Shown: positions 18,355-22,855 of the stretch, piece by piece
Layout: every line of letters starts with the position of its first letter
Position numbering within the stretch: position 1 is the stretch's first letter
Origin: Chitinophagaceae bacterium
Lineage (GTDB): Bacteria; Bacteroidota; Bacteroidia; Chitinophagales; Chitinophagaceae
Length of the DNA stretch: 64,000 nt
Reading direction: 5' to 3'
Assembly: GCA_903642275.1 (NCBI GenBank)
Contig: CAHJWK010000007.1
Location: forward strand, 1 to 64,000
The notes under the pieces: model-generated
The model's input: the letters and a program-made list of their open reading frames with translations, nothing else
Told to the model about the DNA's origin: nothing
Databases searched by the model: none
Position numbers and translations under genes: made by a program

Positions 18355-18689
18355 ATGACGCGATTTGAAACTTACACAATAGCTTTTCCTAAAAGTGAAC
18401 AGGTTTTGATAAAAGCGGGATGGTTTTTAGCGAGACCCAACAGGTTTTTATTAAAACCGAGTTGACTTTTACTAAAACCGAGAAGGATTTTGATGAAAGC
18501 GAGATGGTTTTTAGCGAAACCGAGAAGGTTTTTGGTGAAAGCGAGATGGCTTTTAGCAAAAACCAACAGGTTTTTATTAAAACCGGGATGACTTTTGCTA
18601 AAACCGAGAAGGATTTTGATGAAATCCAACATGTTTTTGACTCAATTAATATTGCTTTCATAAAACAGACGCGGAGCAGCAATGGTTAA
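18355..18689 (+). pseudogene. Heptad-repeat ORF interrupted by a single-base frame break (possible gene)
   Basis: From the ATG at 18355 the frame reads MTRFETYTIAFPKSEQ and enters the second 21-bp unit, where one T is missing from the T-run near 18404-18407 (unit of 20 nt). Past it the frame shifts by one and stays open to the TAA at 18687-18689, coding heptads such as VFSETQQ, VFIKTEL, TFTKTEK, DFDESEM. Adding one base makes the whole 335-nt stretch a 111-residue ORF of about 13 heptads with Phe at position 2. Without repair, only the downstream part from the ATG at 18420 (89 aa) is intact. Both minus-strand readings are also partly open, so coding is uncertain. It may be a decayed gene, a slippage-controlled gene, a sequencing error, or a noncoding repeat. 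Confidence 0.3.
18382..18674. repeat. 21-bp tandem repeat array (about 14 units) between asnS and adk
   Basis: Fourteen consecutive units can be laid out, each 21 nt except the second (18403-18422), which is 20 nt. The consensus is close to GTTTTTnnTAAAACCGAGATG. Examples are at 18444-18464, 18465-18485, 18486-18506 and 18591-18611; the last two units are the most diverged. Each unit has a TTTT-N3-AAAA core that is nearly self-complementary. A six-unit superperiod of 126 bp is visible: units at 18444-18506 recur at 18570-18632. The array fills the gap between two essential genes, asnS and adk. Confidence 0.93.
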
Positions 18690-18715
18690 AAACGGCTTTT
18701 TCGTACTCAAGTAAA

Positions 18716-19998: not shown

Positions 19999-21546
19999 TC
20001 AACTCAAGTTTAAATTTTTATGCAATACTTTACCAATAGCTTTATTAAGCTCTTTCGGAGCAAACGGTTTTAATACAAAATCAGTAAAACCATCGTGCTT
20101 TATTTTATCTAACAATTCAGAACTTGCAGATGCTGTAAGCGCAATTATAGGTGTAACCTGATTAAATTTTCTTATTTCGCGTGTGGCGGTAATGCCATCC
20201 ATTACAGGCATACGTAAGTCCATCAGGATAACATCATATTCATGTTGTTTAACTGCATCTATGGCTTCTTTTCCATTGACTGCAACATCAGATAAAATAC
20301 CCCATTTTTTAAACAGTTGTTCAGCCAGCAATACATTAAACTCTATATCTTCTACCAGCAAGACTTTCTTGTTGCTAAATATTTCAATATCGCCTTCGTT
20401 GTTAAAAAAATTTAAAGGCTTATCCGCCTGCTGCGATTTTTCAAATTCAATTGTAAAGTAAAATTTAGATCCTTTACCATGTTCACTTTGTACCTGAATG
20501 TCTGAATTATAAAGCTTCAATAATTTTTTTACAATAGCAAGCCCTAAACCTGAACCTCCAAAGCTCCGGGTAATTTGACTATCCGCCTGGGTAAAATGAT
20601 CAAAAATAATTTCCTGCTTTTCTTTTGGAATACCGATACCTGTATCTTCTACAGAGAAGTGAATAATCGCTGATGTAAGTGTTTGATTTATTAAAGAGAC
20701 TTCAATATTTATAGACCCATTCTTTGTAAACTTTATTGCGTTTGATACAAGATTGTTTATTACCTGGTTTAATCTTAATTCATCAGCAATGATGAAGCCT
20801 GGTAAATCCTGATCAATCATCAACTTTATTTTATTTCCTCTTTCCAGTGCTACCTGGTTATTTGCAGCTTTTATTTTCCTAACTAACTGACAAATTTCAA
20901 CAGGAGCTTCCGTTAAGGTTATTTTTCCTTCTTCAATCTTGCTAAAATCAAGAATATCATTTATAAGCAACAAAAGATTCTCAGCTGAAATGTGCAGCAC
21001 AGAAACATTATTTTTATCCTCAACACTAAGCTCATCAGAGTACATCATCAAATCAGAAATACCAATTATTGCATTTAGAGGTGTTCTTATTTCATGACTC
21101 ATTACTGAAAGAAATTCGCTTTTTGCCTGTGACGCTTTTTCTGCCTGCTCTTTTGCAAGTATAAGGTCAGTCTCAAGCTGTTTTTCCTGCGTGATAATTG
21201 TCTTTAAAAAATCTATGATATTAATTATTTCTGTTCCTGAACCTTCATTTGTAAAATTACTTTCAGGGTTAAGTTCAGTAATTGCATTTTTTATTTGCTG
21301 TATTGATTCTTTAATGATTTTATTTTGCCTGCCTACATTACTTAATACTTCCTGGTACTCTTTTTCACTCACTGAAAACGCATGCTCAGCAAGCATTTTA
21401 TCCCTTTCAAACATTTTATATGTTTTGGAAATTGCATGCAGAAAATTATCAAGCGATGGTGTTATGCTTCCTTCATTTTCAAAATAAACATGGAGTTGTT
21501 TTTCAAGGATATTATGATAATGTGTAACCGTATTTATTTCGGGCAT
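19999..21546 (-). CDS. Cytoplasmic hybrid histidine kinase (HisKA-HATPase-REC)
   Basis: A 515-aa kinase with no membrane segment. Residues 1-145 are helical, probably coiled coil, with no recognised sensor domain. The H-box is SHEIRTPLN (His151), the N-box [10 protein letters not shown] (261-270), G1 DTGIGIP (301-307) and G2 [11 protein letters not shown] (331-341). A receiver domain fills residues 393-510: [11 protein letters not shown], phospho-acceptor Asp443 in [16 protein letters not shown], and Lys493 in VLKPF. With no DNA-binding output, the phosphate must pass to another protein. It lies 10 bp after the FIST gene in one operon, so the FIST protein is its likely sensor. Confidence 0.92.
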
Positions 21547-21556
21547 TAATTAAAAT

Positions 21557-22696
21557 TTATATTTCCTTAAAAGCAGTAATAGTCATTGTTTGATTGTGTA
21601 AATCACAACCTTCTGTTGAAGTCTGAAACGGAGATATTTCACCATAAGAATAAAAACCTGTTATTGAAACATCAGAACCAAAAACATCTTTTGCGGCATG
21701 AATTTCTTCAGTAACTCTTTCCTGCAATACCAGCTTTCTGCCAATACAACTTATCAGGATTGAGAGATCAGGATTGCTAAACGCTTTCAAGCTATTTTGG
21801 GCAGCAATACCTGATGCGTTGATCAGGTTATCAAAATTTGCTTTCATCAATCTTATCTTACTTCCCTGCGGCATGTTGCCGGCAAACGTCATTGACTTAG
21901 CATTTTCATCAATACTTAAAATTGTTCTTACTATTTTTTTATCATCGGAATTTTCGCATACCGATATTGGAAATAGTAAAGCAGAACCGGGCAACTCATC
22001 TTTGAACGGTCCTAAATATTCTTTGTACAGATCAAGTGCAGATTTATTATCAATTTCATACAACACATTTTTTTCAGATTTGGTAATTGTTTTTTCAGGA
22101 CCAAATTCATCCCATCCACCCAACGAACCATGACCTAATTGTATATAATCTCCATAGAAGCCAATAGCAATTACATTACCTGCAGAAGGTGCTGCATTGA
22201 GTGAAGTAACTGTTTTTTCAAACTTATCACCATCGCCGGCAAGGCCGCCGGTAATTAAAGCACCGGTTGTATTCGCCTCGTTTAAGCCGGATACTAATTC
22301 ACTGCCATTAATTAAAGTGCCATCAGATATAACAAAAACAAACCGGAGACCTTCATCATCAAAACTGCTTCTCAGAAATTTACCTGTTTCAAAACTATTG
22401 CTATGTTTATTAATGTTAGTGTCAATGCACTTAACGGGTGTTTTTTCAAATTGAATAGCTGTGACAGAAACGGTATTTTCGTAAGTTCGGGAACCCGCAA
22501 TTTCGCCGGCAGTCGAACAAAATACTAAATCGGCGAAAGGGTAATCTTTTTTAAGGGAAGTGTATAAATTTTCATCTTTGATTTTGTCATAATTACCAAA
22601 AACTAAAACCAAAGTGCTTTTAATACTTTCAGTATTTTTTTTAGAACCGATATTTTCCCATTGATTTTTTAAAAGCAATTTTTGCTCTATGCGCAT
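21557..22696 (-). CDS. Stand-alone FIST-domain sensor protein, possibly NosP-like
   Basis: A 379-aa soluble protein started at the ATG at 22696; a GTG 21 bp further upstream is possible. The N-terminal half is FIST_N: LVLVFGNYD, DLVFCSTAGEI, FVISDGTLINGSELVSGL, TTGALITGGLAGDG and VIAIGFYGD. The C-terminal half is FIST_C: SALDLYKEYLGP, LLFPISVCEN, MTFAGNMPQGSKIRLM, LILISCIGRKLVL-like and ITGFYSYGEISPF. FIST domains are cytoplasmic ligand sensors. Stand-alone FIST proteins encoded beside hybrid kinases include the haem-based NO sensor NosP, and this operon has that plan. Haem binding cannot be shown here. Confidence 0.85.
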   Translation of the reverse strand: MRIEQKLLLKNQWENIGSKKNTESIKSTLVLVFGNYDKIKDENLYTSLKKDYPFADLVFCSTAGEIAGSRTYENTVSVTAIQFEKTPVKCIDTNINKHSNSFETGKFLRSSFDDEGLRFVFVISDGTLINGSELVSGLNEANTTGALITGGLAGDGDKFEKTVTSLNAAPSAGNVIAIGFYGDYIQLGHGSLGGWDEFGPEKTITKSEKNVLYEIDNKSALDLYKEYLGPFKDELPGSALLFPISVCENSDDKKIVRTILSIDENAKSMTFAGNMPQGSKIRLMKANFDNLINASGIAAQNSLKAFSNPDLSILISCIGRKLVLQERVTEEIHAAKDVFGSDVSITGFYSYGEISPFQTSTEGCDLHNQTMTITAFKEI

Positions 22697-22855
22697 AATA
22701 TTGGATTTTTGAAACACAAACGTAAAAACAATTCCCGTTATTTTGAGTATAACAGGATAAATAGAATATCCTAATCAGTCTTTTTGATTAAAATTTTTAA
22801 AAGAGTTTGAGTTTCAACGAAGCAGTAAAGAAAATATGTAATAAACAATTTGAAA

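Follow-up and report, generated by a model that had tools for sequence, protein, structure and literature searches.

A gene for a FIST protein lying next to a gene for a soluble histidine kinase raises the question of whether a member of the Bacteroidota has a nitric oxide (NO) signaling operon of the NosP type and, if so, where its signal goes. Such a pair occurs in a Chitinophagaceae bacterium (assembly GCA_903642275.1), within the stretch of 64,000 nucleotides of contig CAHJWK010000007.1 analyzed here as a whole and referred to below as the window.

A probable two-gene unit of FIST and hybrid kinase

Domain searches bore out the gene content given in the preliminary description, namely, a FIST_N/FIST_C gene followed at 10 bp by a gene for a HisKA-HATPase-REC kinase (Table 1). 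The FIST open reading frame matched both FIST (PF08495; E = 2e-42, 145.5 bits, residues 28 to 218) and FIST_C (PF10442; E = 5e-34, 117.6 bits, residues 220 to 356), and both matches exceed the Pfam gathering cutoffs, which places the protein in the FIST domain family. Its closest homologues in a FastTree phylogeny come from other Chitinophagaceae. The kinase, encoded downstream on the same minus strand, has HisKA, HATPase_c, and REC domains and intact catalytic motifs, including SHEIRTP with H151, as well as D443, and is therefore classed as a hybrid histidine kinase. Neither protein has a hydrophobic segment pointing to a membrane helix. The same-strand neighbor upstream of the FIST gene encodes a carbonic anhydrase and lies 159 bp away, while msrB lies beyond the kinase gene in convergent orientation, so the two genes are likely to form their own transcript. 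Some 20 bp upstream of the FIST start codon, the motif TACGTTTG matches TAnnTTTG, which we take to be the Bacteroidota −7 promoter consensus; as a single short motif, it is a weak match. Elsewhere in the window, the intergenic region at 18372 to 18690 holds a tandem repeat of 21-bp (also 42-, 63-, and 84-bp) units that is open in several frames, and a different 21-bp array occurs on contig C41 of the same genome (L219, 3802 to 4083).

Table 1. Positions in the window of the FIST-kinase gene pair, its domains, and its candidate functional sites
Feature	Position	Strand	Details
FIST_N/FIST_C protein gene	21557..22696	-	379 aa; stand-alone predicted sensor; ATG at 22696
Soluble hybrid histidine kinase gene	19999..21546	-	515 aa; FIST-partner module, HisKA, HATPase_c, REC (domain search)
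Promoter-like motif TACGTTTG	22717..22724	-	match to −7 element TAnnTTTG; weak
FIST Cys317	21746..21748	-	conserved in 140/140 aligned FIST sequences; aligned with FBXO22 Cys326
FIST Glu353	21638..21640	-	conserved in 140/140 (alignment); aligned with FBXO22 Glu362, beside Cys326
FIST His367	21596..21598	-	95% conserved (alignment); CxLHNQT motif; candidate metal/heme ligand
FIST-partner helical module	21301..21519	-	kinase residues 10-82; consensus HxLLxRQ...Y...DRxLLERSxxxSSxE
HisKA domain	20926..21126	-	E 1e-17; predicted phospho-acceptor H151 at 21094-21096
HATPase_c domain	20440..20784	-	E 1e-29
REC (Response_reg) domain	20035..20364	-	E 3e-26; predicted phospho-acceptor D443 at 20218-20220

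A helical module shared by FIST-associated kinases

The kinase had been described as lacking a sensor domain of its own. This holds for sensor domains of known families, but residues ~10 to 82 form a helical module that is conserved in FIST partners and almost confined to them, and no Pfam or NCBIfam model matched it. In the AlphaFold model of the kinase, the module consists of a short helix (residues 12 to 21) and a long helix (residues 30 to 92) that continues as a coiled-coil into the phospho-acceptor helices. From this model, we infer that it resembles an interaction or transmission element rather than a ligand pocket.

A scan of species genomes recovered FIST homologues at 80 loci in Bacteroidota, Nitrospira, Chloroflexota, Myxococcota, Acidobacteria, Proteobacteria, and further groups, and at 77 of these loci, spread over many phyla, the gene directly downstream of FIST carries the module. 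The kinases to which it is fused range from proteins of 300 aa through hybrids of ~500 aa, such as the 515-aa kinase of the window, to PAS kinases of more than 1,000 aa. Because the same module is joined to such different kinases, it probably serves as their FIST-coupling input. With the module present and its gene directly after a same-strand FIST gene, the window kinase belongs to this FIST-partner group. Searched with a profile that was built from FIST-adjacent genes, and that may thus favor such matches and undercount weak unlinked relatives, 296 Bacteroidota genomes yielded 37 module sites, 34 of them one gene downstream of a same-strand FIST gene; FIST was present in 35 of the 36 module-bearing genomes (p ~1e-24, a value that ignores kinship among the 296). 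The same profile in a sample of 274 gammaproteobacterial genomes placed 11 of 17 module sites, among them the ten strongest, after FIST. The divergence of FIST is also correlated with that of the module (Mantel r of 0.89 versus a permuted maximum of 0.12), although shared descent contributes to this value. Among the examined loci, we found no credible natural fusion of FIST to the module. The very strong conservation of adjacency supports the view that FIST and kinase act as a functional pair.

The two genes could instead simply be coexpressed, with the kinase controlled by its own helical N terminus or by some other protein. Module sites occur away from FIST (three in the Bacteroidota and six weaker ones in the gammaproteobacterial sample), 54 of 88 Bacteroidota FIST genes are without a module kinase partner, and FIST genes on Legionella plasmids have no kinase, all of which would suit a FIST protein that is not the sensor of its neighbor. 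However, adjacency across phyla, swapped kinase architectures, and correlated divergence are hard to explain without direct partnership, and we regard this explanation as very improbable. The module partner is used by only part of the FIST family.

Several loci depart from the usual arrangement. In one genome, the module stands on a 605-aa kinase with no adjoining FIST gene (L222, 4806 to 6623), and a normal FIST pair is encoded elsewhere in that genome; the FIST protein of that pair may have the 605-aa protein as an additional partner kinase. The Bacteroidota also have a second, distant FIST lineage whose genes are often arranged in tandem, two or four in a row, with no kinase module (L132, L136, L134, and L137; G585:C4, G410:C2, and G445:C9). 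On conjugative Legionella plasmids, the kinase-free FIST gene, 43% identical to that of the window (L140, 4476 to 5642), has a P-type ATPase region on one side and an efflux cluster on the other.

Relationship to NosP

In NosP-VpsS of Vibrio cholerae and NosP-NosK of Burkholderia, a stand-alone FIST protein is cotranscribed with a soluble kinase in which no known sensor domain is present, and VpsS, a hybrid kinase, signals to a distinct Hpt protein, LuxU (PMC6769237, PMC12570481). Like these pairs and NosP-NahK, the window locus encodes FIST beside a soluble histidine kinase that has no sensor domain of a known family, and this kinase is a hybrid, as is VpsS. This shared organization, together with a weak match to the NosP model, would be expected if the pair were a true NosP system, in which a heme-binding FIST protein responds to NO and governs the hybrid kinase just as in Proteobacteria. 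Against this, the window FIST scored 50.2 bits with the NosP equivalog model (NCBIfam NF041558), far below its cutoff of 450 bits; its relatives scored 41 to 75 bits, and a protein above the cutoff scored 569 bits. In the FIST tree, proteins recognized by the NosP model formed their own clade (support of 91), and the window FIST fell in a Bacteroidota-rich clade. A His and a Cys that mark the NosP group are both replaced by Gly in the window FIST (G194 and G273); our literature search found no paper naming the NosP heme ligand at the residue level.

The kinases also differ. NosP kinases begin with a different coiled-coil, with no detectable relation to the FIST-partner module (hhalign probability of 5%), and we discarded the idea that the two are homologous. 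With the model for the C-terminal family of the NosP-associated kinases NahK and ErcS (NF041832), the window kinase scored 174.5 bits against a cutoff of 400 bits, less than it scored with general hybrid kinase models. In addition, the host has no domain for cyclic-di-GMP synthesis. We therefore reject the identification of the window FIST as NosP proper on its score, its separate clade, and the different input module of its kinase, and consider a true NosP system here distinctly unlikely. What stands of the earlier comparison is the design of the operon rather than membership in the family: the pair is probably a gas-sensing switch akin to NosP in design but outside the NosP family.

Fold of FIST and candidate sensing sites

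The AlphaFold model of the FIST protein (pLDDT of 91) has its nearest solved fold in the FIST domain of FBXO22 (Z = 22.5), followed by chorismatase (Z = 14) and cyanuric acid hydrolase (Z = 12). Profile and fold searches both led to FBXO22; a sequence-only search with the single FIST protein found no solved relative. The relation of the FBXO22 fold to chorismatase and cyanuric acid hydrolase has been reported, and FBXO22 has no obvious ligand pocket (PMC11185555). The window FIST shares with human FBXO22 an invariant Cys-Glu pair as well as the fold, but identity is ~15%, and FBXO22 is a substrate receptor of a ubiquitin ligase without a kinase partner, whereas the window FIST is paired with a kinase.

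In FBXO22, Cys326 is reactive by experiment, with Glu362 as its helper (PMC13316043). The alignment of Cys317 and Glu353 with these residues makes a thiol-based signal a serious rival to heme. On this explanation, FIST would sense through the Cys317-Glu353 site, by redox change, S-nitrosation, or reaction with an electrophile or aldehyde, and pass the signal to the kinase via the module. The presence of both residues in all 140 aligned sequences is consistent with such chemistry, and the MsrB and bacilliredoxin genes near the pair may point the same way. The invariance of the two residues may nevertheless be structural, the reactivity of FBXO22 was shown with synthetic aldehydes, and the NosP relatives are reported as heme binders, and we judge this route unlikely, though less so than a true NosP system. 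As for heme, His367 is a candidate ligand of a metal or of heme because it is the only near-universal His among the aligned FIST sequences. Arguing against a heme step, none of FBXO22, chorismatase, and cyanuric acid hydrolase is a heme protein, and the His and Cys of the NosP group are missing.

Association with H-NOX

The argument for NO comes instead from the company that the pair keeps in related genomes. H-NOX occurs in 21 of the 296 Bacteroidota genomes, and 12 of these 21 carry the module, compared to 36 of 296 overall (hypergeometric p of 2e-7, phylogeny ignored). A same-strand cluster in the order REC, H-NOX, kinase, FIST, module kinase, Hpt, and REC-LytTR is found in seven genomes of four genera, four of the seven being from one genus and two having one extra kinase gene. 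These operons (L205, L206, L207, L208 to L211, and L046) belong to the Flavobacteriaceae and one further Bacteroidota family, and their parts were confirmed by Pfam in L046. Their H-NOX proteins retain what we take to be the heme motifs of H-NOX, namely, YxSxR and a His close to the proximal position.

In other relatives, one sensor appears to stand in for the other. Some have the layout NtrC-type regulator, FIST, and module-HK-REC-Hpt (L223 and L224), and two have NtrC-type regulator, H-NOX, and HNOBA-HK-REC-Hpt (L220 and L221), so that FIST with its module takes the place of H-NOX with HNOBA. FIST thus fills the slot between regulator and hybrid HK-REC-Hpt kinase that H-NOX has in the H-NOX/HNOBA-kinase NO operons of Bacteroidota, some of which also contain FIST; the sensor and the kinase input module are what differ. 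The host assembly (96% complete) gave no H-NOX match, and H-NOX is likewise absent from most relatives that have the pair. FIST genes have been noted near group 1 H-NOX genes (PMC8738867); beyond this remark, our literature search found no paper on the FIST-kinase pair or on the Bacteroidota H-NOX/FIST operon. The sharing or replacement of FIST by H-NOX in relatives' operons supports a role in NO signaling indirectly, by association only.

Output and phosphorelay partners

No GGDEF domain was found in the host assembly, and we rejected cyclic-di-GMP as the output of the pair; here again the pair differs from NosP systems, its Bacteroidota relatives being tied to sigma-54 or LytTR regulators. 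With REC as its last domain, the window kinase depends on an Hpt to pass its signal to a regulator. The preliminary description called for a search for the downstream Hpt or response regulator, and left the receiver partner unknown. Within the 64-kb window we found no other REC, LytTR, or Hpt, but relatives with the same type of hybrid kinase have an adjoining Hpt (Runella, L013) or an adjoining LytTR regulator (Flectobacillus). The use by relatives of an Hpt together with a LytTR or NtrC-type regulator narrows the range of likely partners. On contig C41 of the host, unlinked to the pair, a gene for an NtrC-type regulator overlaps a 135-aa Hpt-like open reading frame that scores below the Pfam cutoff. 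This regulator is 52 to 58% identical to FIST- and H-NOX-linked regulators, compared to 35 to 39% for general NtrC regulators, and by this analogy the C41 pair is a candidate partner of the window kinase. The idea that the C41 regulator belongs to a FIST-specific family is weakened by two plasmid regulators, in Aureispira (as regulator-Hpt) and Hymenobacter, which are 52 to 56% identical to it and not near FIST. An Hpt match on contig C1 of the host was set aside as a partner because it belongs to a disrupted hybrid kinase reading frame (L082, 1462 to 2751), where a PAS-HisKA-...-Hpt kinase is split over several frames, either as a pseudogene or through assembly errors.

Proposed mechanism and significance

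We propose that FIST and the adjoining kinase form one signaling unit, with FIST as its cytoplasmic auxiliary sensor. FIST would dock on the helical module of ~75 residues at the N terminus of the kinase and, once docked, may set the balance between kinase and phosphatase activity through the coiled-coil leading into the HisKA dimer. The kinase is predicted to autophosphorylate H151 and pass the phosphate to D443 of its own REC domain, the standard transfer in hybrid kinase architecture. Judging from relatives, the phosphate would then move via a separate Hpt to a DNA-binding response regulator, for which the C41 Hpt-like protein and NtrC-type regulator are the best host candidates, even though regulators of the C41 subfamily also serve loci without a nearby FIST. 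Since the unit shares an operon with H-NOX in some relatives and FIST gives way to H-NOX at the corresponding operon position in others, the likeliest signal would be NO or some other molecule that binds a cofactor carried by FIST. The output would be gene expression by sigma-54 or LytTR regulators rather than cyclic-di-GMP. The unit would work in the manner of NosP/VpsS, but its FIST belongs to a different lineage and would couple to the kinase through a module peculiar to that lineage. Taken as a whole, with docking on the module, relay via Hpt to a regulator, and NO or a cofactor ligand as the signal, we put this mechanism at slightly better than an even chance.

FIST proteins occur in bacteria and, as FBXO22, in humans, and a short module that accompanies FIST across phyla offers a small target for binding and structural studies of how they transfer signals to their partners. 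The operons shared with H-NOX are the best available reason to consider NO as the signal outside the Proteobacteria, and the pair suggests a route by which NO could control genes in Bacteroidota without cyclic-di-GMP. More tentatively, as a reading that we think falls somewhat short of an even chance, a large cross-phylum family of FIST signaling systems may exist beside NosP, defined by a previously undescribed helical kinase module that would serve FIST as HNOBA serves H-NOX. In the Bacteroidota, Hpt-LytTR or Hpt-NtrC phosphorelays would then take their input from FIST, from H-NOX in its stead, or from both together, and would provide NO-dependent transcription without cyclic-di-GMP.
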